Shown: one piece after another, positions 5,455-27,857 of the stretch
Layout: each line of letters starts with the position of its first letter
Position numbering within the stretch: position 1 is the first letter of the stretch
Source of the DNA: Streptomyces cyaneofuscatus
GTDB lineage: Bacteria; Actinomycetota; Actinomycetes; Streptomycetales; Streptomycetaceae
Reading direction: 5' to 3'
DNA: 62,747 bases
Assembly: GCF_000718135.1 (NCBI RefSeq)
Contig: NZ_JOEM01000031.1
Coordinates: 1-62,747, forward strand
Notes under the pieces: model-generated
Seen by the model: the letters and a program-made list of their open reading frames with translations, nothing else
Told to the model about the DNA's origin: nothing
The model's database searches: none
Translations under genes and position numbers: made by a program

Positions 5455-5907
5455 CGGCCGGGACCGCCCCCTGTCACGGGGACCGGGGGCGAAACCGTCC
5501 CCTGTCCCCCGCCGGGCGGAAACAACTTGGGACTTCCTCCTCCCGGAGGAGACAAGGGGGCCGTGAGCAGCGGTTACCTCTCGCCCCCGAGGAGCCGCGG
5601 AGCTCCGTCGGCTCCACTCGCGCCTGCCACGCCGGGGCGTCGGAACCTATATTCCTCGCGTCAGCCAGGACGACCTCCCGACCCCCGTGGAGCGCCGTGG
5701 GAGTTGTCGGATTCGGCCGGATCGACTGATCACACACAACCAGTTGGGCGCCTCTCGCGCCTGGTGCCGACGGCGGATTCGGCGTCCGGGGCCGCAAGGA
5801 CCGGCGTGCGCGCCGAGGAAGGGATCGCGGCCTGCCGCATTCCACGGTCCGGGCTGCGCGATTGGCGGTCGAATCAGATGTCAGCCGACCAGAACCTTGG
5901 AGAAACG
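5455..5907 (+). other. Intergenic region before the first NRPS gene
   Basis: This 453-bp stretch has a likely terminator for the MFS gene: CGCCCCC (5465-5471) pairs with GGGGGCG (5485-5491). A -10-like TATATT lies at 5648-5653 with no convincing -35. The upstream bases read open in the NRPS frame, but the composition is not protein-like, and a clear ribosome site (GGAG, 5899-5902) sits 5 bp before ATG 5908. I see no other gene. Confidence 0.5.
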
Positions 5908-8900
5908 ATGACGGAGTCCAGCGAGCCGACCCCTCCGGATCCATCGGCTGGGCCCGGCACAGCAGTCGTCACCCGGGCAGCGGAGCATGGTTTCCACGGA
6001 GCCGCGGCAGCACACACGATCCCCGAAGGCTGGGCTCCGCGTCGGGCCATCCGGGCGAAGACGATCCACGGCGGGTTCGAGGCCCAGGCGTCCCGCACTC
6101 CGCACAGCATCGCTCTGCGCGCCCGCGGTGTGGCGCTGACCTACGAGGAGCTCAACGCCCAAGCGAACGTCCTGGCCCGCCGGTTGCGCGCCCACGGCGT
6201 CGGGACCGAGTCCCTGGTCGTCGTATGTCTGCCGCGCTCCGTGGAGTTGCTCGTCAGCTTCCTCGCCGTGATGAAGGCCGGTGGCGCGTACGTCCCGCTG
6301 TCGCCGGGCGACCCGGACCAGCGGCGTCGGCACATCGTGGAGGACGCGCGGCCCACCCTCGTCATCACCGACGCCGATCACCAGGGCGACGAGGAATTCG
6401 CCGGCTCGGCGGCCTTGTGCGTCGACGGTCTGCCGGCGTGGGTCGAGGCCGCGGGCCCTGCCGAGCGGAGCGACCTGGACCACGAGGTCCGGCCTGAGCA
6501 GCTGGCCTACGTCATCTACACCTCCGGGTCGAGTGGCCGGCCCAAGGGGGTGATGTGCCCGCACCACGGGGTGGCGAACTACCTCGACTGGGCCGTCGAG
6601 ACCTACACCACGCTCGGCACCGACGGTGCGCCGCTCTTCTCCTCGGTCGGCTTCGACATGGTCGTGCCCAACATCTACGCGCCCCTGTGGTGCGGCCAGC
6701 CCGTGCGGCTCGTGCCCGACGACCAGGACCTGCCGGCGCAGATCTCCGAGGTGGTCTCCTCGGGCCCGTACGGCTTCATCAAACTGACGCCCGGGCAGCT
6801 CGACCTGATCAGCTCGACGACCGGTACCGACGGGGCCCGGAGCCTCGCGGGGCTGCTCGCTGTCGGAGCCGACCTCTTCCCGGCGCAGTCGCTGCAGCGG
6901 TGGCGCGCACTCGACACCTCGACGCCCGTCCTCAACGAGTACGGGCCGACCGAGGCCTCGGTGGCCAACGCCTTCTTCATGATCCCGGACGACTTCTCGG
7001 GGAAGACCATCCCGATCGGCAGGCCCATCGAGAACACCTCCATGTACATCCTGGACGAGGAGTTCCAGCCGGTGACGGCCGGTGCGGAGGGTGAGATCTT
7101 CATCGGCGGGGTGTGCTGCGCTCGTGGCTACCTGGGCCGGCCGGACCTGAGCAGCGCGAAATTCGTACCCGACCCCTACTCCCCGGACCCCGGAGCGCGG
7201 ATGTACCGCACCGGCGACCGGGCGACCTGGGACGACCAGGGCAACGCCGTCTTCCTGGGCAGGTCGGACCGCCAGCTGAAGATCCGCGGCTACCGTGTGG
7301 AGCCGGGCGAGACCGAGGCGGCGCTCCGGCGGCACCCCGGCATCCACGACGCGGCCGTCGTGGGTCACCGCGGCGACCCCGACGCTCCGCTCGTGCTGAA
7401 GGCCTACCTCGTCGTCGACGAGGGTGTGCCCGAAGGGCTGGTCGCGTGGCTGAAGGAGCGCGTCCCGGACTACGCCGTCCCGCGGCAGTACGCCACGGTG
7501 GACGCGATCCCGCTCGACGCGAACGGCAAGGCGGACCGCTCCGCGCTGGACCGGCAGAATCCCGGGCCTGAGCGGGCCGCGGACGGCCCGGCCGCGGGAA
7601 GCAGTGTGGAGGACGTGCTGCGCGAGGCGTGGAAGTCCGTCCTGGGGATCACCACGGTGGACCCCGACGCGAACTTCTTCGAGCTCGGCGGCGATTCGAT
7701 CTCGACCGTCCGTGTCGCGTCGAAGCTGCGCGAGCAAGGCTACGAGCTGAGCCTCACCGACGTGTTCCGCTCTCCGACCCTGCACGCCCTGGCGTCCTTG
7801 GTCGTACGGTCGGACGCGGTTGCCGAGACCGCACCGGAGATCGGCGGGCCGCTGGTCCTGACACCGATCCAGCAGTGGTTCATCGACCGCGAGCTGGTGG
7901 ACCGGGACCACAACAACCAGTCCATCCTCCTGGAGTGGAAGGACGAGCCCGAGGTCCTCGCACTGGAAACCGCGCTGGAGGCGCTGGTCAACGCCCACGA
8001 CGCGCTCCGGCTCTCCTTCTCGCGGAGTGACGGCGAGTGGCGGCAGGAGGCCGGCGAGGCGCCGCCCGGGTTCGAGCTGCTGTCCGAGGTCCATCTCGAC
8101 GACGCCGATGTCGACCAGCAGCTCCAGGAAGCGGCCACGGCGGTGCAGCGCTCGCTCGACATCGAGGGCGGTCAGGTGCTGCGCGCCGCGCTGATCACCA
8201 GTGCCGAACGCCCGAGCCTTCTCCTGATCGCCGTCCACCACCTCGCGGTCGACACCTTCTCCTGGCCGACGATCGTGCGCGATCTCGACGTCGCCTACAC
8301 GAATCTCGTCGCCGGACGGGAAGCCGGCCTGTCCGAGGACGCCTTCGTCTTCTCGAAGTGGGCGAGCGCGCTCGCCGCCGTACGTCCTCGGCAGGCCGCA
8401 CCGTCCGAGGACCGGGCGGGCACAGCACCTGAGCCGGTCTCCCTCCCCCGGGACATCCCGGACGGGGCCAACACCGTGGGTGGCGCGGCGTGCGTCGAGG
8501 TGCGCCTCCCGGCGGACACCACCGGACATCTGCTGCGGAGGACGCCGAGCGACTACAGCAGCCCGGTCGAGACCGTGCTGCTGACCGCACTCGCCGAGTC
8601 GCTGAGCGCGGCCCACGGCCGGCCGTCGGTGACGTTCGACGTGGAACGGCACGGCCGGGACAGCCGCCTTCCCGGCCCTGACCGCTCAGCCGCGGTGGGC
8701 TGGTTCGCGGGCGTGCACCGGGTGACGCTCGACTCCTTCACTCTGGAGGCGGAGAGCGACGCGGGGCTGCGCGACGCGGTGCACCACATGAAACAGGCGA
8801 TGGCCGCCGGGCCCGCGGACCGGTTGGAGTGCGACATCGAGGCAGCCCCGGCCAACCCGGGCACGATCATGTTCAACTACTCGGGCCATCTGGAGACCCA

Positions 8901-10443
8901 GTTCCAGGCGGAGCACTTCCGAGCGGCCCTGGGTGCTGCCGGTGAGGAGCGCTCGGCCCGCCAGGAGCGCAGCCACGACATCGAGCTCGAAGTCGAAGTC
9001 GCCGACGGCCGGCTCACCTTCCGCTGGCTCTACGCCCCCGCGCTGCACAGGCGGCAGACCATCGAGTCGGTCGCCCGACGGTGCATGAGCACCATCGAGC
9101 TCCTGGTCCGACGCGGTCCGGAGGTGCGGGCCACGCGGGTGCCGTCGGACTTCCCCTTGGCGTCGGTGACGCGGGAGCAGCTGGACCGGTTGCTCAAGGA
9201 GACCGGCCGGGCGGACGATCTGTACGACCTCACGCCGCTGCAGAGCGGGATGCTGCTGCACAGCCTCATGGGCGGCGGCTACGGCGGATGCCACGTCATC
9301 GAGTGTGCTCCCGGCCTCGACGAGTCCGACGTGCTCGACGTGTGGCGCGAGCTGGTCGAACGGCACCCGGTGCTCCGCAGCAGCGTGCACTGGCAGGGCC
9401 TGGAGCGGCCGGTCCAGGTGGTGCATCCCGTGGAGTCGGTGGAGATCGGGATCGCCGACTGGTCGGAATCCCTCATCGACACGGCGAGCGACCAGGACCG
9501 GGCCTGGCGCCCCCGGGTGACGGTGGCGCGCATGGGTGGTGACCGGCTGAAGGTGGTGCTCAACTGCCATCACCTGTGGATCGACGGCTGGAGTGTCGGT
9601 GTGCTCACCGATGAGGCGAGCCGGTTGCACGAGGCACTGACGGGTGGCGGAGGGCAGTTGCCCGCGCCGGTCCCGTACCGCCGCTACGTGGAGTGGCTGC
9701 GCGACCCGGAGCGGCAGCGGGCGGCGCATACGTATTGGACGGACCGGCTCGCGGGCAGCCGGGCGTGCTACCTCGGCCCGCCCGGCGGGGGTGGCGGTGG
9801 CGGAGAGCGCCTGCTGACCGTCGACCTTTCGGCGGCCACCAGGTCCGACTTCCAGCGTCTGGTGAGCCGGAACGGGGTGACGCCCGCCGTCGCCGCTCTC
9901 GCGGCCTGGGCGGTCGCGGTGTCGGCCGCCGTCGGCCGGGACGACGTCATGGTGGGCTGCGTGGTCGACGGGCGGGCCTGGGATCTCGCGAAGATCGACC
10001 GCATCGTCGGGCTGGTGATGAACACGGTGCCGGTCGTGTGGGATCCGGCCGGCCCGGCGACGGTGGCCACGGCGCTGACCGGTCTCAGGGACCAGCTGAG
10101 CGACACCGTGCGCCACGGCTACCACTCCCTGGCCGACCTCCAGCGGAGGGTGCCTGGTTCCCAGGGCGAGCCCTTCGACACCCTCTTCGTCGTCGAGGAC
10201 GTGTCGGACGCGAGTTCCGACCGGCCGTACCAACGGGAGCTGGGGTACGAAGAGGTGCACTATCCGCTCTCGCTCACCCTCCTGGTGGAGAACGGCCAGC
10301 CGGTCGCCCTCCGGTTCGCCTTCCACGAGGGGGGACTCGACTCGGAGCGGGTGCGGGCCCTGGCCGCCCATGTGGTCACGGCACTCGGGCTCATGGCGTC
10401 GGACGCCTCCGGGCCGGCGGCCGCACTCCGGACGATGCTCTGA
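5908..10443 (+). CDS. NRPS, A-PCP-E-C
   Basis: 1511-aa nonribosomal peptide synthetase. The adenylation domain spans about 50-550 with YTSGSSGRPKG (204-214), YRTGD and NGK. The carrier has FELGGDSIS (591-599). The epimerisation domain (about 645-1075) shows PIQQWF, HHLAVDTFSW (777-786), VERHGR (912-917) and FNYSG, so the loaded residue should become D. A C-terminal condensation domain (about 1105-1510) has HHLWIDGWS from 1221. No A-PCP follows that C domain, so its acceptor must sit on another protein. My reading of the specificity code is DMPKLVEVAK: Asp235 is kept, and Lys278/Glu322 resemble Asn-type codes, but FDMVVPN departs from the common FDxSxxE. Substrate uncertain. It probably acts mid-line, since it lacks an N-terminal C domain but ends in one. 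Confidence 0.93.
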   Translation: MTESSEPTPPDPSAGPGTAVVTRAAEHGFHGAAAAHTIPEGWAPRRAIRAKTIHGGFEAQASRTPHSIALRARGVALTYEELNAQANVLARRLRAHGVGTESLVVVCLPRSVELLVSFLAVMKAGGAYVPLSPGDPDQRRRHIVEDARPTLVITDADHQGDEEFAGSAALCVDGLPAWVEAAGPAERSDLDHEVRPEQLAYVIYTSGSSGRPKGVMCPHHGVANYLDWAVETYTTLGTDGAPLFSSVGFDMVVPNIYAPLWCGQPVRLVPDDQDLPAQISEVVSSGPYGFIKLTPGQLDLISSTTGTDGARSLAGLLAVGADLFPAQSLQRWRALDTSTPVLNEYGPTEASVANAFFMIPDDFSGKTIPIGRPIENTSMYILDEEFQPVTAGAEGEIFIGGVCCARGYLGRPDLSSAKFVPDPYSPDPGARMYRTGDRATWDDQGNAVFLGRSDRQLKIRGYRVEPGETEAALRRHPGIHDAAVVGHRGDPDAPLVLKAYLVVDEGVPEGLVAWLKERVPDYAVPRQYATVDAIPLDANGKADRSALDRQNPGPERAADGPAAGSSVEDVLREAWKSVLGITTVDPDANFFELGGDSISTVRVASKLREQGYELSLTDVFRSPTLHALASLVVRSDAVAETAPEIGGPLVLTPIQQWFIDRELVDRDHNNQSILLEWKDEPEVLALETALEALVNAHDALRLSFSRSDGEWRQEAGEAPPGFELLSEVHLDDADVDQQLQEAATAVQRSLDIEGGQVLRAALITSAERPSLLLIAVHHLAVDTFSWPTIVRDLDVAYTNLVAGREAGLSEDAFVFSKWASALAAVRPRQAAPSEDRAGTAPEPVSLPRDIPDGANTVGGAACVEVRLPADTTGHLLRRTPSDYSSPVETVLLTALAESLSAAHGRPSVTFDVERHGRDSRLPGPDRSAAVGWFAGVHRVTLDSFTLEAESDAGLRDAVHHMKQAMAAGPADRLECDIEAAPANPGTIMFNYSGHLETQFQAEHFRAALGAAGEERSARQERSHDIELEVEVADGRLTFRWLYAPALHRRQTIESVARRCMSTIELLVRRGPEVRATRVPSDFPLASVTREQLDRLLKETGRADDLYDLTPLQSGMLLHSLMGGGYGGCHVIECAPGLDESDVLDVWRELVERHPVLRSSVHWQGLERPVQVVHPVESVEIGIADWSESLIDTASDQDRAWRPRVTVARMGGDRLKVVLNCHHLWIDGWSVGVLTDEASRLHEALTGGGGQLPAPVPYRRYVEWLRDPERQRAAHTYWTDRLAGSRACYLGPPGGGGGGGERLLTVDLSAATRSDFQRLVSRNGVTPAVAALAAWAVAVSAAVGRDDVMVGCVVDGRAWDLAKIDRIVGLVMNTVPVVWDPAGPATVATALTGLRDQLSDTVRHGYHSLADLQRRVPGSQGEPFDTLFVVEDVSDASSDRPYQRELGYEEVHYPLSLTLLVENGQPVALRFAFHEGGLDSERVRALAAHVVTALGLMASDASGPAAALRTML

Positions 10444-10582: not shown

Positions 10583-11584
10583 CTATGTCGCCGGAAGCAG
10601 GTCGGCGAAGTAGGTGTCCTCGCCCGTGCACCCCCGGCGGAGTTTCGGTGAGTCATGTCCGATGCCGAGCTCCAGACGGCATGCCCCGCGGTCGATGGCC
10701 GCCCGCAACGGGCCCAGCAGGCAGCCGAAGTGGTAGACGGTTCCGCGGTCGAGCCCGGCCGTGTCGACGATTCCGAGGGTGTGTGCGTCCATGGTGTCGT
10801 CGAACATGCGGCACAGCATGTGCGCGATCACGTTTCCCCGCCACCAGGTCCGGACGAAGAAGTGCTTGCCCGGGCGTCGGCGGTAGTTCTTGATCCGCCA
10901 CCCGACGAGGTCGGCGGACTCGTTCATGCCGTTGCGCTGGGAGACGCTGGCGATACCCGCCGCGGCCTCCGCGACGACCTCGTCCGAGAAGGGCACGACG
11001 TCGTGCTTCAGCCCGAGTTCCCCGGCTTCGGAGATGTCCCGGTTCCAGTGCCGTCGGCGCTTCGCGGGGAGGCTCTGGAGGAAGTCCTCGATGCCGGCGA
11101 CCTCGCCGATCTCCAACGTGCACCAGACACCGTGTTCACGGACGCTGGCCGACGGCGCGGCGTCGAGGTAGGCGGGCAGGTCGGTGACGGTCAGGAAGGG
11201 TGACAGGACCGCGTCCGCCGTCTGCGCGGCGCGGGATACGGCCTCCGTGACCAGTGTGGCCAGCAGTTCGCGGCGCTCCTCGTCGTGGCCGATGCCTGTG
11301 AGGGAGCTGCCGGACCGCAGACGGGCCGGCCCGCCACCGATGAAGGCCGCGGACCCCTGGTGGGAGGTCAGCCCGAGGTACCGGCGATAGTCGTCGTTGA
11401 GGGACTCGACCTGCTTGACCATCACGACGGGCAGCCGCCCGCGCCCGCGCCCGGCACGCGTCTGGACCTCGAAGTAGTCGAGCCGGGGGTCCAGCGAGCA
11501 GAGCGCCCTGTCGTCCGTCATGGCGAGTGCGTTGCGGGCCATGACGCTCTCGGTGACGGCGCCGGGGAACGCCGTACTCACCAT
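10583..11584 (-). CDS. FemAB/GNAT-like acyltransferase paired with the ligase
   Basis: About 333-aa protein of the acetyltransferase fold. The C-terminal half has RTWWRGNVIAHMLCRMF, a YHFGCLLGPLRAAIDRG helix and RLELGIGHDSPKLRRG. This resembles FemAB-like and BioF2-type (peptidoglycan bridge or PF04339-like) proteins. ATG 11584 (or GTG 11581) overlaps the ligase stop codon by a few bases, so both are made from one mRNA. A start at 11629 is also open but would overlap the ligase more deeply. FemX and PacB relatives move aminoacyl groups from tRNA; here the donor could be the aminoacyl carrier protein made by the partner ligase. That role is inference. It could equally be a tailoring acyltransferase for the peptide. 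Confidence 0.7.
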   Translation of the reverse strand: MVSTAFPGAVTESVMARNALAMTDDRALCSLDPRLDYFEVQTRAGRGRGRLPVVMVKQVESLNDDYRRYLGLTSHQGSAAFIGGGPARLRSGSSLTGIGHDEERRELLATLVTEAVSRAAQTADAVLSPFLTVTDLPAYLDAAPSASVREHGVWCTLEIGEVAGIEDFLQSLPAKRRRHWNRDISEAGELGLKHDVVPFSDEVVAEAAAGIASVSQRNGMNESADLVGWRIKNYRRRPGKHFFVRTWWRGNVIAHMLCRMFDDTMDAHTLGIVDTAGLDRGTVYHFGCLLGPLRAAIDRGACRLELGIGHDSPKLRRGCTGEDTYFADLLPAT

Positions 11585-12516
11585 TTCGTACGTCCGCTCC
11601 ACAGCAACTCGCGTACGTCGTCGGGCCATTCAGCGAGTCGTGGGCCGTGGGCGGCGACGAGCGCGAGCGCGATTCTCTCCAGGCCGAAGCCGACACAGGC
11701 GCTGTGGGCCGGCTCCCCGTCCGCCGACCGGATGTCGAAGATCCGGCCGAAGTGGTCATGGTGGTAGTTGATCGACGCGACCGCGACGGGATGGCCGCCG
11801 ATGGGGGCGACGACCTCCGCCTTCATCCCCTCCTCCCGCTGGTTGTCGGCCATGATCTGCCCGGTCGTCCCGAAGAACGGGTCCGACGCCGCCTCGACCT
11901 TGGCCTCAAGTCCGAGGCGGCGGACGAAGGCGGACGCGCGCGCGTGCCAGTCGTCGAACCAGGTGGAGGCTTCGGCAGGGCTGCCGACCCTCACGAACTC
12001 GCGCAGCCGGAAAGACACCAGGCGTCCCGGTTCGGTCGACGGCTCGTGGCGGAAGCAGAATCCGCTCGCGTCCACCGTCCGGCTCCCGTCCAGCACGCTC
12101 CCACCGAACAGCGGGTACACGGAGTAGCACACAGCGGGAGCCAGTACGAAGTCGGTCAGTTGCGTGTGCCCGCCCCAGTCCTCCCCCTTGGCGACGGCCT
12201 TTTCCAGGTCCTCGTGTGCGAACTCATCGCCCTGGAATGCGTGTACCGCACCGAAGAGCTGCGGAAACGACGCCACATACTCGCTCTTCTCGAAGACGGC
12301 ACGCGGCAGGATCGGCGGGAAATGGAGCTCGGTGGGCTCTTTGTGCGCGACCTCTGCGGACAGCGCATTCGCCAGGCCGGAATAGACCGTTTCGAGTTCG
12401 GCACCCCATCCGTACAATCCGGTGGCCGTGTTCACCAGGAGACCGTGGTAGCGCAGAGCGTTCGGAAGGCTGGCCGGAATCCTCTCCCCCAGCCCCTTCG
12501 CCATCTCGTCTGTCAT
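11578..12516 (-). CDS. Amino acid:carrier-protein ligase (class II synthetase-like)
   Basis: 312-aa homologue of the catalytic core of methanogen-type seryl-tRNA synthetase, without a tRNA-binding domain. Motif 2 reads FCFRHE (153-158) with FRLREFVRVG (169-178); motif 3 reads GFGLER (276-281). The three zinc ligands of this family are recognisable as Cys130, Glu173 and Cys274. Characterised relatives (Mocibob et al. 2010, alpha-proteobacteria) activate small amino acids such as Gly or Ala and transfer them to phosphopantetheine of a carrier protein instead of tRNA. The likely partner is the free carrier protein at 13058-13402, whose gene lies just past the divergent promoter region. Its place inside an NRPS cluster suggests it replaces a missing A domain. 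Family call firm; role in the peptide inferred. Confidence 0.88.
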   Translation of the reverse strand: MTDEMAKGLGERIPASLPNALRYHGLLVNTATGLYGWGAELETVYSGLANALSAEVAHKEPTELHFPPILPRAVFEKSEYVASFPQLFGAVHAFQGDEFAHEDLEKAVAKGEDWGGHTQLTDFVLAPAVCYSVYPLFGGSVLDGSRTVDASGFCFRHEPSTEPGRLVSFRLREFVRVGSPAEASTWFDDWHARASAFVRRLGLEAKVEAASDPFFGTTGQIMADNQREEGMKAEVVAPIGGHPVAVASINYHHDHFGRIFDIRSADGEPAHSACVGFGLERIALALVAAHGPRLAEWPDDVRELLWSGRTKW

Positions 12517-12857
12517 TTTTGCCCCATCCTGGAGGAGAGTTCGATCACCAGCTTGCGCGAGTTCGTTTCACGCCTCGCCTGGCGCCTGGACTATAGGCTC
12601 CGCCGGCCCGCCGCCGGGAGTGGGAGCGTCCTCCCGTAAGCGCCCCGACCTCCGCTCCGCCCTCCACCCCGATGTGACGTGACCGCAGTTCACCGCGGGT
12701 GCTCCTCCCCCGCGAGGATGAAGTTCCAGATCGGTTCAACCCGGTGGTGGATGGCAATCCGGATTGCTCGGAAGCTACGTTCTAGGCGAATCGTTCGACC
12801 AGCCGAAAAACGCGGGTCTCTTTCCAGTGTCTCGCTCAGAGAATTCATGGAGTGGCC
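12517..12857. promoter_or_regulatory. Divergent promoter region, ligase versus mbtH
   Basis: A 341-bp gap between the ligase start (12516, minus) and mbtH (12858, plus), so it must carry promoters in both directions. It is richer in A+T near 12710-12850 than its neighbours. GGAG at 12849-12852 is the mbtH ribosome site. I see no strong palindrome and could not place -35/-10 boxes with confidence. No coding sequence is apparent. Confidence 0.5.
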
Positions 12858-13061
12858 ATGTCCGTTGCGCACGAGTTCACCGTGGTGGTGAACCACGAAG
12901 AGCAGTACTCGATCTGGTGGTCCCATCGACCGCTGCCGTCCGGATGGGACGGCGCCGGCTTCAGCGGAAGCCGGGAAGAATGCCTCTCCCACATCTCCGA
13001 GGTGTGGACCGACATGCGTCCGCTCAGCCTGCGGAAGCGCATGGAAGGAGCTACGGCGTGA
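12858..13061 (+). CDS. mbtH: MbtH-like NRPS chaperone
   Basis: 67-aa MbtH-like protein that binds A domains and supports their solubility and activity. It has the family pattern NHEEQYS, GW, then EECLSHI and [10 protein letters not shown]. One family feature is altered: the usual SxWP is SIWW, and GWR is GWD. ATG 12858 fits the GGAG at 12849-12852; GTG 12852 would overlap that site. The stop overlaps the GTG start of the next gene (GTGA), so it is coupled to the free carrier protein. It is the only MbtH in the cluster and may serve all four A domains. Confidence 0.93.
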
Positions 13062-13402
13062 CGACCGAGGCAGGCATGTCGTCCACGGAGGAACAGAAAA
13101 AGTTGGCCCTTCCCGCCACCGACGTCGAAGAAGTTGTCGGCGAGATCTTCCGGGATGTGCTCGCCACGGACGATCCGGTAGATGTCACCTGCAGTTTCTT
13201 CCGCATCGGCGGAACTTCCATCATGGGCGCCAAGGTGATCGCCCGAATTTCGGCCCGCTATCGGGTCCAGCTTTCCTTGAGAACCATCTTCGAGTTTCCA
13301 ACTGTCCGAGATCTGGCACAGGTTGTCGAAACCAAGGTTCGCAGCGACGTGTCCGGCCTCTCGGACGCCGAAGTCGTCGCACTGGCGACGCGTAAGGAGT
13401 GA
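13058..13402 (+). CDS. Free-standing peptidyl carrier protein
   Basis: 114-aa single carrier domain. The phosphopantetheine attachment motif is [14 protein letters not shown] with Ser54, and [14 protein letters not shown] closes the domain. The GTG start overlaps the mbtH stop by 4 bp, and the next NRPS gene begins 8 bp after its stop, so it is coupled into the main NRPS operon. No A domain is attached. The divergently encoded synthetase-like ligase is the obvious loader. It would then act as a detached module: acceptor for the orphan C domain of the A-PCP-E-C protein and donor for the first C domain of the next NRPS. Carrier identity is clear; its place in the line is inferred. Confidence 0.9.
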
Positions 13403-13409
13403 GGAAAGA

Positions 13410-20783
<7,374 letters not shown>

Positions 20784-20814: not shown

Positions 20815-21795
20815 ATGATGGAAATCAGCCCCCTCGTCACCAACCTCGAAAAGGATTCGATCCACCTCGACCTCGACGTCCGGCGGGAGCTCAAGCGCCT
20901 CGCGGAGCTCCTGACGGAGACGGCACCGGGCCTGCTGGACGAGCCCCGTTGGCTGGCTGCGGCACGTGACCTCTCCTGCGCGCTCCCGACCGCCCTGCGG
21001 ACAGCCCTGCGGAACTTCTCCGCCGACTCCGGCCAGGCGGGCGTGCTGCGGATCCACGGCCTGCCGGTCGGGCCCCTGCCTCCCACCCCCACCCAGCGGG
21101 ATTCCGTCGAACGGACGGCCACCGTGCCGGCGTCGGCGATCGTGCTCTGCACCATGGTGCTGGGTGAAGTGGTCGGCTTCGAAGGCGAGAAGCACGGCGC
21201 CCTGGTGCAGAACGTGGTGCCGGTACCGGGTGAGGAGCGGAAGCAGAGCAACGCCGGGTCCGTCGACCTGGAAATGCACACCGAGAACGCGTTCCACCCC
21301 CACCGGCCCGACTTCGTCGCCCTGTCCTGCCTGCGCCAGGACCTCGACGGGGAAGCCGGGCTGCGCGTCGCGTCGCTGCGGCGGGCGGTCCGGCTCCTCT
21401 CGGCCGAGCAGCGGGAGGTCCTCGCCGAGCCCCGCTTCAGGACCGACCCGCCGCCGTCGTTCAACGGAGCGGGCGACGCGGTGGCGCACGGGGTCCTCTC
21501 CGGTGCGCCCGAGGATCCGGACGCCCAGGTGGACTTCCACGCCACGACGCCCCTGGACGCGGGCGCCACCGGGGCCATGGCCGCCCTCCGCGAGGCTCTC
21601 GAAGCAGTCGTCGACACCGTCTACTTCGCCCCGGGCGACCTGGCGATCGTCGACAACCGCGTGGCCCTGCACGGCCGCACGCCGTTCACGCCCCGGTACG
21701 ACGGCAACGACCGCTGGCTGCACCGCGTGTTCATCCACACCGACAGCCGCCGGTCCCGGGCCCGGCGCAGCGGGGGCGGACATGTCGTCAGCTGA
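20815..21795 (+). CDS. VioC/AsnO-type amino acid beta-hydroxylase
   Basis: 326-aa Fe(II)/2-oxoglutarate oxygenase of the clavaminate-synthase-like group. Iron ligands are seen as His155 and Glu157 (in MHTENAF) and His286 (in DNRVALHGRTPF); Arg300 (in DGNDRWLHR) should bind 2-oxoglutarate. The HxE rather than HxD pattern and the flanking text match VioC (Arg 3-hydroxylase) and AsnO (Asn 3-hydroxylase), which act on free amino acids. It probably supplies a beta-hydroxylated building block for one A domain. Which residue it hydroxylates cannot be read from sequence. The gene starts 31 bp after the NRPS stop with GGAG about 8 bp before ATG, so it is in the same operon. Confidence 0.87.
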   Translation: MMEISPLVTNLEKDSIHLDLDVRRELKRLAELLTETAPGLLDEPRWLAAARDLSCALPTALRTALRNFSADSGQAGVLRIHGLPVGPLPPTPTQRDSVERTATVPASAIVLCTMVLGEVVGFEGEKHGALVQNVVPVPGEERKQSNAGSVDLEMHTENAFHPHRPDFVALSCLRQDLDGEAGLRVASLRRAVRLLSAEQREVLAEPRFRTDPPPSFNGAGDAVAHGVLSGAPEDPDAQVDFHATTPLDAGATGAMAALREALEAVVDTVYFAPGDLAIVDNRVALHGRTPFTPRYDGNDRWLHRVFIHTDSRRSRARRSGGGHVVS

Positions 21796-21899
21796 GCACG
21801 CGGCCTCCCCGTACGACCGGCCCCAGCACGTCCCGACCCCTCCCCTCTCCCGGGCGGGCACCCGCCCCCGGAGTCCGATCGCCGCGACGGATGGTAACG

Positions 21900-23174
21900 A
21901 TGCCTGATTCTCCGGCTGTTGAAGCCAAGTCCCCCTCCAGCACGTCCCTCCGGATCGACGGCACCCGGCTGCTCGACCGTCTCGACCGCCTGGCCGAGAT
22001 CGGCGGCGAGGACGGCGGCGTCACCCGGATGGGCTTCAGCGACGCCGATGTGGAAGGGCGGGCCCATGTGGCCCGGCAGGCGGTGGAGGCCGGGCTGACC
22101 GCATCGGTCGATGCCGGCGGGAACCTGCTCATACGGCGCCCCGGCGACCACCGGCACTCCACCCGGCCCCCCGTCCTCATCGGTTCGCACCTCGACACGG
22201 TCGCCAACGGCGGCCGGCTGGACGGCGCCTACGGGGTCATCGCCGCGCTGGAAGTGCTGCAGACCCTGCACGAAGCGGGCGTCGAATCGGACCACGAGAC
22301 CATCGCCGTCGGCTTCGCGAACGAGGAGGGCGCTCTCTTCCCGCAGCCGTTCTGGGGCTCCATGGTGCTCGCGGGACGGCTGGACGCGCTGCCCAGTGAG
22401 CCGGAGGACTACGCCGGCAGGCCCCTGCGGGACGCCCTGGCCAGGGCCGGCGGCGATCTGTCCCAGCTGAAGACCGCCACCTGGGCGCCCGGCTCCCTCA
22501 CCGCCTACCTGGAACTCCACGTGGAGCAGGGCCCCGTCCTCGAACGGCTGGGCAGGACCATCGGTGTGGTCGAATCCATCACCGGGCGCATCCACATGTC
22601 CGTACAGCTGCACGGCAGAGCGGGCCACGCGGGCACCACTCCCATGGATGGGCGCCAGGACCCGCTCGTCGTGGCGGCGGGCCTGATCCAGGCCGTCCAG
22701 ACCATGGCGACGCGGGAGAACCTGTGCCGGGTCGCCACCGTCGGGCGGGTGGAGGTCCTGCCGAACTCCCCCAACACCATCCCGGATTCGGTACGGCTCG
22801 ACATCGACCTCCGGGACAGCGACCCCACCCGGCTCGACGTGGCCGAGCACACCGTGCGCCAGACCCTCGCCGACCTGGCCCGCGCCGGGAACGTACGGGC
22901 CACGATCGAGTCCACCGTACGCAGCGCTCCCGTGCACACGGATCCGAAGGTCCGGGACACCATCGCGGCGTCGGCGGCCGAGCTCGGATTCGCCCAGGAG
23001 ACGCTGCCGAGCGGCGCGGGACACGACGCCCAGGTGGTGGCCGATATCGCTCCGGTCGGAATGATCTTCGTGCCGAGCATCGACGGCGTCAGCCATGTGC
23101 CCGTTGAACGCACCGCCCCCGACGACCTGGTCGCCGGTGCCGAAGTGCTGCTGCGCACGGTGCTGAAGCTCTGA
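21900..23174 (+). CDS. M20-family amidohydrolase (carbamoylase/allantoate type)
   Basis: 424-aa dizinc hydrolase related to N-carbamoyl-L-amino acid hydrolases and allantoate amidohydrolases. Metal ligands are visible: His97 (GSHLDT), Asp108 (RLDGAYG), Glu142/143 (NEEG), His207 (ELHVEQG) and a late His near 399 (VSHVPVE). It could make a precursor amino acid by removing a carbamoyl or similar group, or trim a protected product. Neither is shown. ATG 21891 is an alternative start in the same frame. It follows the hydroxylase by about 100 bp on the same strand and probably belongs to the same operon. Confidence 0.85.
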   Translation: MPDSPAVEAKSPSSTSLRIDGTRLLDRLDRLAEIGGEDGGVTRMGFSDADVEGRAHVARQAVEAGLTASVDAGGNLLIRRPGDHRHSTRPPVLIGSHLDTVANGGRLDGAYGVIAALEVLQTLHEAGVESDHETIAVGFANEEGALFPQPFWGSMVLAGRLDALPSEPEDYAGRPLRDALARAGGDLSQLKTATWAPGSLTAYLELHVEQGPVLERLGRTIGVVESITGRIHMSVQLHGRAGHAGTTPMDGRQDPLVVAAGLIQAVQTMATRENLCRVATVGRVEVLPNSPNTIPDSVRLDIDLRDSDPTRLDVAEHTVRQTLADLARAGNVRATIESTVRSAPVHTDPKVRDTIAASAAELGFAQETLPSGAGHDAQVVADIAPVGMIFVPSIDGVSHVPVERTAPDDLVAGAEVLLRTVLKL

Positions 23175-23251: not shown

Positions 23252-23911
23252 ATGCAGACCATGCGTCAACACACCCCAGTCATCGCCACGTTCTGCGGCG
23301 CGCGTCCCGGCAGAGATCCCGCGTACGCCGCCCTCGCCGAGGACTTCGGTGCGGCTCTGGGCCGCCGCGGCTGCGGGCTGGTCTACGGCGCCGGCGGCGT
23401 CGGCGTGATGGGGGCGGTGGCCGGAGCGGCGCTGGCCCACGGCGCTGCCGTCACGGGGGTGGTCCCGCACGACCTCCACGAACGGGAGCGGTCCCAGAAG
23501 GCGCCGGGGCAGATCTTCGTCGTGCAGAGCATGCACGAGCGCAAGGCGCTGATGTACCGGCTCTCCAGCGCCTTCGCGGTCCTGCCCGGTGGATTCGGGA
23601 CCCTGGACGAGTTCATGGAGGTGGCGACCTGGAACCAGCTCGGCATGCACCGCAAGCGGTTGGTCCTCCTCAACACGAAGGGCTACTTCGACTCGCTCCT
23701 GGACTTTCTCGACACCGTGATGCGGGAGGGCTTCATGACCGTCGAGGACCGCAACCTCGTCTGTGCCACCGATGACGTGGAGGAGGCACTCGACCTGCTG
23801 ATGTCGGAGCCGTTGCAGGCGGTCACGGCGGTCACCCTGCCGTCCCCACAGGCGCGCGTCCCCCACGAGGTGATCCGGCCGGTCCCGGAGCTGCGGGTGC
23901 CGGCCTCGTGA
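23252..23911 (+). CDS. LOG-family nucleotide phosphoribohydrolase
   Basis: 219-aa protein of the LOG (Lonely Guy, formerly lysine-decarboxylase-like) family. It shows the nucleotide-fold start FCGARPG, YGAGGVGVMG, and the signature PGGFGTLDE (112-120). Characterised members release a free base from a nucleoside 5'-monophosphate. Such an enzyme is unexpected in a peptide cluster: it could be a cytokinin-type housekeeping gene, or it could supply a base or ribosyl-derived group. GGAG before ATG 23252 supports the start. It is the last gene of the plus-strand run and ends at a strong bidirectional hairpin. Confidence 0.87.
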   Translation: MQTMRQHTPVIATFCGARPGRDPAYAALAEDFGAALGRRGCGLVYGAGGVGVMGAVAGAALAHGAAVTGVVPHDLHERERSQKAPGQIFVVQSMHERKALMYRLSSAFAVLPGGFGTLDEFMEVATWNQLGMHRKRLVLLNTKGYFDSLLDFLDTVMREGFMTVEDRNLVCATDDVEEALDLLMSEPLQAVTAVTLPSPQARVPHEVIRPVPELRVPAS

Positions 23912-24722: not shown

Positions 24723-27700
24723 TCACAGGTCGACCGGCGGGGAGGGCTGCCATTCGGCGAGGGCCGCGTCGGGTCCGCCGCCGCTCACCAGGTGCCGGAG
24801 GAGGGACTGGAAATCGCGGGAGAACCGCTCGGCGGAAGCTGCCTCGAAGAGGTCGGTGGCGTAGATGACCGAGCAGCGGAGCTGCCCCTCCGACTCGACG
24901 CAGGTCAGGTCCAGGTCGAACTTGGACGAGGACATCGGCCAGTCCCGGTGCGTCACCTCGGCGCGTGGCAGCTCCCAGCGCGGCAGGTCGCTCTCCGTCT
25001 CGTAGGAGAAGAACACCTGGAAGACAGGGTTCCGGTCCAGCCTCCGTTCGGGCCGCAGCGTGTCGACGACGTGGCCGTAGGAGACCGAGTTGTGCTTCAT
25101 CGCACCGAGAGTGGCCGCCCGCACGTCTCCCAGTACGTCGCGGAAGGTCCGCTCCGCGGAAACCGCGGAGCGCAGCACCACGGTGTCGGTCAGAAATCCG
25201 ACCAGCTGCTCCAGCTCGGGAAGGGAGCGTCCGTTCGTCGCCGCCCCCACCGCGATGTCGTCCTGCCCGCTCCAGCGGGCCAGCACGACCTTGAAGGCGG
25301 CCAGCAGGACCATGAACGAGCTCGCGTTCTCCTGTCCTCCGAGGCTCCGCAGACCGAGAGCCACACTCGTCGGCAGCGCGAACTCGACCGACGCGCCGTG
25401 GCCGGACCAGTAGGGGGGCCTCGGCCGGTCGGCCGGCAGCTCCAGGGCGGGCAGGTCCTTCAACCGCTCGCGCCAGTAGGCCAGATGGAGATCCGCCTCC
25501 TCGACCGACTGCCGCTCGGCCCACACGGCGAAGTCGAGGAACTGGAGAGGGACGTCCGCGAGTCCGCCCTGCGGCTCACCGGCCGCCTGCCGGTACAGGG
25601 CTTCCAGATCGCGGAGCACGGTGGGGAGCGAGCTGCCGTCGACGGCGATGTGGTGGAAGACCAACAGGAGCAGCGCCTCGCCGGCACGCCGGGGGTCTTC
25701 GAAGAGACCGGCCCGTACGAGCGGTGCCGTACCGAGGTCGAACGGTTCCTCGGCGAAGGCACGGACCTGTTCGGGGATACCGTCCGCGCTGAACTCGACG
25801 GATTCCCGGGTCAGCCGGAACCCGTTCGCCTCCGCCGGCGCGACGACCTGGCGGGGGCCGTCCTCGCCGGCGACGAACCACGTACGCAGGATCTCGTGCC
25901 GCCGGACCAGAGCGTTGAACGCCGCTGCGAGCGCCGCGGCGTCCACCTCACCCGAAAGGTGCCAGAGGGACGGCACGTTGTACTGGTAGCCCTCGGGGTC
26001 GAGGCTCTGGACGATCCACAGCCGCTCCTGCCCGGCCGAGAGCGGCCCCTCGGTCCGCCCCTCGCACCGTGTCGGCGCCGAAGCGCCGGCCACGGCCTCC
26101 TGGAGTGAGCCGATCACGGCCGCCATGCCGGCGACCGTCGGGTGTTCGAAGACCAGCCTGAGCGGTATGTCCTTCGCGGTGGCGGCGCTCACCCGGGAAG
26201 CGAGCTGGAACGCCAGCAGGGAGTGTCCGCCGAGATCGAAGAAGCTGTCGTGCGTGCCCACGCTGTCGACCCGCAGGACTTCGGCCCAGATCCCCGCCAG
26301 CAGGGCTTCGGCCCGGTTCGCCGGCTCGGTGGCGGATGCCGGGGAGCCGTTCACCGCGACCGGCTCGGGCAGGGCGCTCCGGTCGACCTTGCCGTTCGGC
26401 GTCATGGGGAAGGCGTCCAGCTCGACGACGGCCGCGGGCACCAGGTGAGCCGGCAGCACAGCCTGGAGCGCCTTGCGCGGTTCGGTGGTCCCGTCGGCCT
26501 CCGCGGTCCTCGTCACATACCCGGTCAACCGTAGCTCGCCCGTGGCATCGGGGCGGGCCACGACCACCGCACCGGCAACCCCCCGCAGCGAAGCCAGCGC
26601 GGACTCGACTTCACCCAGCGTGATCCGGAACCCGCGGATCTTCACCTGGTCGTCGAAGCGCCCGACGAATTCCAGTGAGCCGCCGGGCAGCCTCCGGGCG
26701 AGGTCTCCGGTCCGGTAGAGCCGTCCGCCGGGTGGCCCGAAGCGATCCGGCACGAACTGCTTCTCGGTCAGCGCCGGCCGGTTGAGATAGCCGCGGGCGA
26801 CCCGGTCCCCGCCGATGAGGATCTCCCCCACCTCGCCAGGTCCGACCTCCGCCCCGTCCTCGCCCACCAGATGAACCCGGGTACGGGACACCGGCCGGCC
26901 GATGGGAACGGGATCGCCCTCGGCGACCTCACTCAGCTCCTGGACCATGGCGGTGATGGTCGTCTCGGTCGGACCGTAGACGTTGAGCACGCGCTTTCCC
27001 GCGAGGCTGGTGCGGGCTGCCCGCACGATGCCGGACCTGATCACGTCGCCGCCCGAGACGACCAGCCGGACGGTCTCCAGGCCGGTGCCCTCCCGTACGA
27101 CCGCGTCCAGATAGACCGGCGTCATGTTGAGGACGGTGACGGAGTGCTCGTGCACGTACCGGATCACGTCCTTGGGCGCCACCACGTCATCGGGCTGGAT
27201 GACGGCGGTGGCCCCGCGGACGAGCGGTGCGAGCATCTGCTCGATGGACACGTCGAACGCGGCGCTCACCGAGACGAGGGTCCGGTCGTCCTCGCGGTAG
27301 CCGAACGCCTCCGTGATCGCGGCGAGGTGGCCGGCCAGGCTGGTGTGGTCGACCATCACCCCCTTCGGCCTCCCGGTCGAACCCGACGTGTAGATGACGT
27401 ACGCGAGATCCTGCGGCCTCGGGGTCGGCGGGCTGTCCGTACGGGCCGCGTCCGGGCCGGGCTCGTCGAGGAGGACGGTCCGGGCCCGGCCGTCCGCCGG
27501 CCCGGAGGCCAGCTCCCGCGTGGTCAGCACCACCGGTGCTCCCGTGTCCTCCAGGACGAACTTGTTCCGCTCCGAGGGGTACTTCGGGTCGAGGGGCACA
27601 TAGACGCCCCCGGCCTTCAGCACCCCGAGCAGCGCCACCGCCATGTTCGGCGAGCGGTCGACGCGGACCACGACGGGAACGTCCTGGCCGACGCCGGCGT

Positions 27701-27857
27701 CCTTCAGCAGCCAGGCCACCGCGTCGGCCCGGGCCTCCAACTCGGCATACGTCAGCATCTGCGTACCGGAGACCACCGCAGGGGCATCCGGCCGGGCCCG
27801 GGTCCTGGCGGCGAACAGCTCCAGGACGGAGCCGTGATCGGTCGGTGAGGTGTTCAA
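24723..27857 (-). CDS. NRPS, A-PCP-C (TTG start)
   Basis: 1044-aa synthetase. The A domain (about 10-510) has YTSGSTGRPKG (156-166), YRTGD and NGK. The carrier has FFDLGGHSLL with Ser546. The C domain (about 615-1040) has HHIAVDG from 735. My code reading is DVENVSVITK; Glu239 is seen in several A domains for basic amino acids (Orn, Lys), a weak hint. With no N-terminal C domain it is the best candidate for chain initiation, and its terminal C domain needs an acceptor on another protein, such as the A-PCP-E-C enzyme. The only start in frame with a good ribosome site (GGAG, 9 bp away) is TTG at 27857; the nearby ATG is in another frame. It faces away from the other NRPS genes. Confidence 0.92.
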   Translation of the reverse strand: MNTSPTDHGSVLELFAARTRARPDAPAVVSGTQMLTYAELEARADAVAWLLKDAGVGQDVPVVVRVDRSPNMAVALLGVLKAGGVYVPLDPKYPSERNKFVLEDTGAPVVLTTRELASGPADGRARTVLLDEPGPDAARTDSPPTPRPQDLAYVIYTSGSTGRPKGVMVDHTSLAGHLAAITEAFGYREDDRTLVSVSAAFDVSIEQMLAPLVRGATAVIQPDDVVAPKDVIRYVHEHSVTVLNMTPVYLDAVVREGTGLETVRLVVSGGDVIRSGIVRAARTSLAGKRVLNVYGPTETTITAMVQELSEVAEGDPVPIGRPVSRTRVHLVGEDGAEVGPGEVGEILIGGDRVARGYLNRPALTEKQFVPDRFGPPGGRLYRTGDLARRLPGGSLEFVGRFDDQVKIRGFRITLGEVESALASLRGVAGAVVVARPDATGELRLTGYVTRTAEADGTTEPRKALQAVLPAHLVPAAVVELDAFPMTPNGKVDRSALPEPVAVNGSPASATEPANRAEALLAGIWAEVLRVDSVGTHDSFFDLGGHSLLAFQLASRVSAATAKDIPLRLVFEHPTVAGMAAVIGSLQEAVAGASAPTRCEGRTEGPLSAGQERLWIVQSLDPEGYQYNVPSLWHLSGEVDAAALAAAFNALVRRHEILRTWFVAGEDGPRQVVAPAEANGFRLTRESVEFSADGIPEQVRAFAEEPFDLGTAPLVRAGLFEDPRRAGEALLLLVFHHIAVDGSSLPTVLRDLEALYRQAAGEPQGGLADVPLQFLDFAVWAERQSVEEADLHLAYWRERLKDLPALELPADRPRPPYWSGHGASVEFALPTSVALGLRSLGGQENASSFMVLLAAFKVVLARWSGQDDIAVGAATNGRSLPELEQLVGFLTDTVVLRSAVSAERTFRDVLGDVRAATLGAMKHNSVSYGHVVDTLRPERRLDRNPVFQVFFSYETESDLPRWELPRAEVTHRDWPMSSSKFDLDLTCVESEGQLRCSVIYATDLFEAASAERFSRDFQSLLRHLVSGGGPDAALAEWQPSPPVDL

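Follow-up and report, generated by a model that had tools for sequence, protein, structure and literature searches.

Can an enzyme derived from an aminoacyl-tRNA synthetase stand in for an adenylation (A) domain in a nonribosomal peptide synthetase (NRPS) assembly line? The question is raised by a Streptomyces cyaneofuscatus gene cluster on a stretch of 62,747 nucleotides (hereafter the window), which is the entire 62.7-kb contig (C31, NZ_JOEM01000031.1), one of the 126 that make up a 7.9-Mb genome, and in which a relative of the amino acid:carrier-protein ligases is encoded divergently from a free-standing peptidyl carrier protein (PCP) and a large NRPS. An earlier note on this DNA had proposed that synthetase-type activation here replaces an A domain in trans. 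That proposal stands in so far as the ligase and the PCP can fill the sole A-less carrier position in the line, as judged by domain count and by linkage in six of 20 PCP clusters; it is incomplete in that it overlooked a further gene, a FemAB_like partner at 10583-11584 on the minus strand that overlaps the ligase gene and offers the charged carrier a second route. From knowledge of the family and from linkage, we consider it likely that the ligase charges the free PCP. That the PCP so charged acts as a detached module, as suggested by the domain grammar of the NRPS and by precedent in two other loci described below (L187 and L188), we regard as an evenly balanced proposition.

The ligase coordinates in the earlier note were exact, and the 312-amino-acid (aa) open frame matches both NF005479 (amino acid--[acyl-carrier-protein] ligase; 343.6 bits, model positions 22-317 of 318) and the solved Bll0957 ligase (E = 1.6e-64). 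Because the NF005479 score is 13 bits short of the curated NCBIfam equivalog cut-off (357 bits), we class the protein as a divergent relative and not as an equivalog. The residues previously read as zinc ligands, C130, E173 and C274, are matched by Cys, Glu and Cys in Bll0957 (counted by hand). None of the 24 rows of our ligase alignment (A2) departs at these positions or at the class II motif residues R156, E158 and R281, which bears out both the zinc site and the class II motifs. Alignment to the type-2 seryl-tRNA synthetase (SerRS) 3w3s is limited to its catalytic part (311-507 of 527), and the ligase corresponds to a type-2 SerRS catalytic core without the tRNA-binding domain. A SerRS proper was ruled out, as the tRNA-binding part is missing, and a carrier protein gene lies close to the ligase gene, as expected of an amino acid:carrier-protein ligase.

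The window enzyme thus resembles the Bradyrhizobium (Bll0957, PDB 4h2w/3mey) and Agrobacterium ligases, which likewise consist of a type-2 SerRS-like core lacking the tRNA-binding domain, share the same zinc ligands and have a separate carrier protein encoded nearby. Unlike those systems, the carrier in the window is an NRPS-type PCP within an NRPS operon, no acyl-CoA dehydrogenase gene is a neighbour, and the ligase, besides its shortfall against the NCBIfam cut-off, belongs to a clade of its own. In a tree of 80 ligases this window clade (12 rows) has support of 100/99 and is placed with the canonical ligases, moderately supported (86/82), away from the other same-family loci; the tree was rooted at its midpoint, and some long branches make its deep placements unsure. 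As the window clade stands apart from the other same-family ligases, such enzymes probably became associated with NRPS genes on more than one occasion.

The case for a detached module comes from the assembly line itself. Searched in all six frames from end to end, the window yielded four A domains, precisely the number previously claimed, along with four integral thiolation (T) domains, one free T domain, four condensation (C) domains, one epimerisation domain and one thioesterase (TE); each of the four A domains is paired with its own T domain, and no stand-alone A domain was found in the window. Of the five C-type domains, the one following the T domain of NRPS1 carries the epimerisation-type motifs HHLAVDTFSW, VGWFAG and FNYSG and matches parts of PvdL (98-523), 2xhg and 5isw which we take to be epimerisation domains, while the last NRPS1 domain matches C domains. 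An NRPS1 ending in two C domains was considered and rejected on the strength of these motifs and of the PvdL match. NRPS2 starts with a C domain and both NRPS1 and NRPS3 end with one, and therefore a carrier without an A domain is needed between two C domains, which, given the presumed order of the NRPS proteins, is the position of a trans-loaded module. Omitting NRPS3 from the line removes one T and one C domain and leaves the need for an extra carrier in place. The free PCP, whose gene lies directly ahead of NRPS2, fits this position, and the ligase fits as the leftover activating enzyme. The coupling of the lone carrier to mbtH and to the large NRPS is likewise as had been described: the GTG start of the PCP gene lies within a 4-nt overlap with the mbtH stop, and the NRPS2 ATG at 13410 follows 7 nt past the PCP gene. 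The divergent promoter placed between ligase and mbtH fared less well, in that the divergent gap is present and a simple sigma-70 scan found no consensus promoter in 12480-12900.

If the ligase and the PCP do form such a module, the ligase would generate an amino-acid adenylate and load the free PCP, standing in for an A domain. By domain grammar, the PCP would be the carrier of an A-less module onto which the upstream chain would be condensed by the last C domain of NRPS1 (or of NRPS3), and from which the N-terminal C domain of NRPS2 would then accept it; the TE would release a four-residue peptide (one of five residues if NRPS3 is included) with Asn-like, Ser-like and perhaps Orn-like units. 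The partner, coupled to the ligase, would probably use or modify the same aminoacyl-PCP. Other NRPS lines are known in which an A-less module is charged in trans, the carrier lacking an A domain of its own and being served externally; compared with these, the external enzyme of the window would be a class II synthetase homologue rather than an A domain of the ANL family.

The predicted units derive from A-domain codes read at nine positions (a tenth-position K was appended by script and is not from the sequence), namely DMPKAGEVA for NRPS1, DLPKIAEVG and DVWHVAHII for the first and second A domains of NRPS2, and the NRPS3 code listed in Table 1. From their likeness to published codes we take NRPS1 and the first NRPS2 domain to be Asn-like, the second NRPS2 domain Ser-like and NRPS3 Orn-like or basic-like. 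The nearest solved relative of the iron/2-oxoglutarate (Fe/2OG) hydroxylase is asparagine oxygenase, which agrees with the Asn-like codes. Downstream of the hydroxylase gene lie a hydantoinase/carbamoylase-family amidohydrolase gene (21891-23174; TIGR01879 above cut-off) and a LOG-type 'lysine decarboxylase' family gene (23252-23911; PF03641).

Table 1. Features of the ligase-PCP cluster, in window coordinates.
Feature	Coordinates	Strand	Remarks
Amino acid:carrier-protein ligase relative, 312 aa	11578..12516	-	open frame from ATG; Zn ligands C130/E173/C274
FemAB_like/GNAT-fold partner, 333 aa	10583..11584	-	ATG overlaps ligase stop by 7 nt
Divergent intergenic region, ligase / mbtH	12517..12857	.	
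mbtH-like gene, 67 aa	12858..13061	+	PF03621, 67.2 bits
Free-standing PCP, 114 aa	13058..13402	+	PF00550, 49.7 bits; phosphopantetheine Ser54 in GGTS; conserved tail LSDAEVVAL
NRPS2, C-A-T-C-A-T-TE	13410..20783	+	
NRPS1, A-T-E-C (E, epimerisation)	5878..10443	+	start chosen at MSADQ
Epimerisation domain of NRPS1	7837..9126	+	PvdL 98-523 match, E = 4.8e-56; 2xhg, 5isw; motifs
C-terminal condensation domain of NRPS1	9190..10440	+	HHLWIDG intact
NRPS3, A-T-C	24723..27857	-	A code DVENVGVIT
Fe/2OG hydroxylase	20815..21795	+	nearest solved relative asparagine oxygenase (2og5, E = 4e-79)

That ligase and PCP belong together is suggested by their distribution. A search that reaches only relatives with common short exact words returned 20 PCP relatives at 64-96% identity among 79 candidates; their alignment has a mean column identity of 76%, with Ser54 invariant and the tail conserved, and the best other match in the own genome reaches 38%. 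The PCP gene has a third-position GC content of 0.72, below that of mbtH, the ligase and NRPS2 (0.81-0.91). As a linkage fingerprint we used the size of the longest contig reported for each protein cluster, equality of which strongly suggests one contig and not one operon. By this measure, six of the 20 PCP clusters share their longest-contig size (19652, 32582, 244262, 303303, 176219 and 7277411) with a window-clade ligase cluster, the latter being 14 clusters at 62-98% identity within the best 120 of 4685 ligases. The partner family, which comprises 22 clusters including the window's own among 7993 scored candidates of a protein search, matches five of the 20 PCP clusters in this way, and three PCP clusters match both partner and ligase; sizes are also equal for five partner clusters and a ligase cluster, and in strain NPDC006288 ligase and partner carry the locus tags 09825 and 09820, respectively. 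The nearest named proteins in these searches come mostly from Streptomyces.

Wider genome draws, which overlapped in part, gave no further genome with the cassette. The partner, sought in 392 and 296 genomes, was confined to the own genome, the 392 otherwise yielding just four distant FemAB_like matches; the PCP, sought in 391 genomes, was found in the own genome only; and 392 and 394 genomes held no near copy of the ligase except the own. Plasmid records contained ligases in 93 records, all below 60% identity, and no partner. The PCP tail motif was absent from the ends of open reading frames in the other ligase loci.

Those loci form three sets, each stretch at most 20 kb long: 80 from genome_contigs (of 551, mostly from other phyla); 20 from the same genus, being the 18 best besides the own (94 of 392 genomes matched) and two own-genome paralogues; and 20 from the same family, inferred to be Streptomycetaceae, picked from 37 matches (36 of 394 genomes matched, own included). 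A or C domains, counted at E < 1e-10 with few seed sequences and hence as a lower bound, occur in at least 10 of the 20 same-genus, six of the 20 same-family and two of the 80 genome_contigs loci. The expectation in the earlier note that these ligases normally act outside NRPS systems thus holds only in part: it fits the genome_contigs loci, and nearer home 16 of the 40 same-genus and same-family loci, chosen from longer match lists, carry such domains. Carrier proteins (CPs) are present in 75 of the 80 genome_contigs loci, and in 65 a free CP lies within 3 kb of the ligase.

The closest precedents for the proposed arrangement are two same-family loci, L188 (7832-10412) and L187 (7229-10423), where genes for a stand-alone C domain, a CP (detected in both by Pfam only) and a ligase are consecutive; in L169 and L174, too, a stand-alone C domain lies upstream of the ligase. 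Like the window, L187 and L188 unite a synthetase-type ligase, a free CP and a condensation domain in one cluster; unlike the window, their C domain is stand-alone (HHxxADN), the CP is ACP (acyl carrier protein)-like, the ligase falls in another clade and no FemAB_like partner was found. The grouping of ligase, free PCP and NRPS for which the earlier note had suggested searching genomes therefore recurs in this looser form, and the drawn genomes held no near copy of the cassette besides the own.

Several of the surveyed loci have features of their own. The L188 cassette adjoins PALP, ornithine cyclodeaminase-like and carbamoyltransferase-like genes, which we take to be of diaminopropionate type, and an AsnO/VioC-like hydroxylase frame occurs in both L187 and L188. 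In L125, L127, L128, L129, L130 and L133, ligases of another clade stand with a CP and a 3-hydroxyacyl-CoA dehydrogenase next to NRPS domains, an arrangement which resembles aminomalonyl-carrier pathways with a synthetase-type ligase replacing the A domain. The own genome holds a second ligase-like gene (L138:9589-11384, contig C6) that adjoins an AurF-type N-oxygenase gene (PF11583, 124.6 bits), AurF-like frames being found also at L132, L134 and L136, and a third (L137:9457-10751, contig C30) that is followed by a gene for an 83-aa, weakly CP-like protein (PP-binding_2, E = 0.045). At L120, L172 and L178, ligase, CP, acyl-CoA dehydrogenase and a thioester-reductase-like frame lie together, and these sets might release an amino aldehyde.

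The overlooked partner gene bears directly on what becomes of a charged PCP. It is presumably co-transcribed with the ligase gene, which it overlaps from the ATG used here; a longer start at 11629 is likewise open. The window's partner protein itself gives no Pfam match, and nine of 21 members of its family match PF04339 (FemAB_like) weakly (best E = 0.031). Searched against the 392 same-genus genomes, the family profile found the four distant matches noted above, all of which score above the PF04339 cut-off and two of which, as single queries, recover the partner (E = 2.7e-10 and 1.4e-5). We then compared the family with a set of 13 PF04339 proteins (from 14 matches in 41 genomes, one dropped as already among the four), the frames of which were chosen by likeness to two of the four distant matches. 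With default settings hhalign gave a probability of 99.1 (E = 1.2e-18, 297 columns), and under a control option set a probability of 99.5 (E = 5.3e-22); with the latter options, five column-shuffled controls and comparisons with the ligase and PCP families gave probabilities of at most 0.2. Searches of the partner profile against PDB gave nothing meaningful (one match at E = 0.58), and an NCBIfam search of the family gave chance-level matches only. Because of its profile relation to PF04339 proteins, we assign the partner by sequence comparison to the FemAB_like group of GNAT-fold proteins, within the superfamily of tRNA-dependent aminoacyl transferases.

Several observations weigh against a detached module. 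In NRPS2 the motif of the first C domain reads HHIAFDA and that of the second FHPILEG (17178-17198, residue 1257), as against HHxxxDG, and were the first of these domains inactive, the domains would tally with no need of the free PCP. How the NRPS proteins follow one another, the place of NRPS3 in the line included, is itself inferred. The usual neighbour of such ligases, an acyl-CoA dehydrogenase (78 of the 80 genome_contigs loci), points to side chemistry as a frequent use of charged carriers. In the closest readable ligase locus (L034, Actinoplanes rectilineatus, 50%), the one close actinobacterial relative among the 80 kept genome_contigs loci, a glycosidase gene and a polysaccharide-type gene adjoin the ligase, with CPs and an acyl-CoA dehydrogenase in the vicinity and, at a greater distance, one C and one A domain. 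PCP and partner also occur together on two contigs (of size 951417, strain BK022, and 283360, S. venezuelae), neither of which is represented among the best 120 of 4685 ligases, so that the PCP may have a use that does not involve this ligase. The same two contigs would suit an A domain that loads the free PCP in trans, as A domains are well known to do, with the ligase serving another carrier or idle; we find this very improbable, since the four A domains of the window each have their own T domain and longest-contig size ties the PCP to a ligase in six of 20 clusters.

The partner, finally, offers an alternative sink for the charged PCP. The ligase-charged PCP would then be a donor, from whose thioester the partner moves the aminoacyl group to an amine of a peptide or precursor, as Fem, MprF and VlmA do from aminoacyl-tRNA. 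The overlap of the ligase and partner genes, the hhalign relation to FemAB_like proteins and the equal-size longest contigs in five partner/PCP cases (two without a listed ligase) and five partner/ligase cases all favour such a donor, as does the grouping of VlmA and MprF with Fem, and the proposal of amide ligation by Atu2574 from an Agrobacterium-type aminoacyl-ACP, in PMC2922099. Against it, the PCP sits in the NRPS2 operon, apart from the ligase, the C-C junction ahead of NRPS2 would be left without a carrier, and a search of the 120 other loci, using the partner profile and two seed proteins, turned up no FemAB_like frame close to the ligases. We know, moreover, of no carrier-dependent Fem enzyme, and we hold a donor role to be possible though on the unlikely side. 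The module and the donor could both be real; that one ligase-charged, private PCP serves the C domains as well as a FemAB-fold transferase switched from an aminoacyl-tRNA to an aminoacyl-PCP donor seems to us rather unlikely. Quite improbable, in our view, is a PCP on which the amino acid is kept for tailoring, such as hydroxylation or desaturation, the modified residue then reaching the line by another route. The acyl-CoA dehydrogenases of the genome_contigs loci and the 3-hydroxyacyl-CoA dehydrogenase of six of the 20 same-genus ligase loci are in keeping with it; neither dehydrogenase gene adjoins the ligase in the window, and the hydroxylase has asparagine oxygenase as its nearest relative where two A codes are already Asn-like. 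Asparagine oxygenase acts on free Asn, which also counts against tailoring on the carrier.

The valanimycin pair VlmL/VlmA and the Fem/MprF proteins resemble the window in pairing a class II synthetase paralogue with a GNAT-fold transferase, and VlmL, a SerRS paralogue, is described in PMC2922099 as charging tRNA; unlike VlmL, the window ligase has no tRNA-binding part. The debate over the natural role of the amino acid:carrier-protein ligases is visible in the same source. There, Iyer and colleagues refer to the finding, made in 2010, of a SerRS-like enzyme that loads a carrier protein; judging by neighbouring genes, they suggest that the system joins an amino acid to a sugar and does not produce peptides, and they assign VlmA and MprF, along with the Fem ligases, to the GNAT fold (PMC2922099). 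The earlier note knew of no described NRPS line built in this way, and our searches of an open-access library likewise showed none loaded by such a ligase. To our knowledge, the natural role of these ligases has been open since their description in 2010. Here a carrier, an NRPS to use it and a gap in the line lie in one small cluster, and therefore a role of the ligase in nonribosomal peptide synthesis is directly testable. The cluster speaks, short of proof, for a peptide role of these ligases in one lineage. If the detached-module reading is true, the ligase-PCP pair would be a compact loading device that does not belong to the A-domain family.

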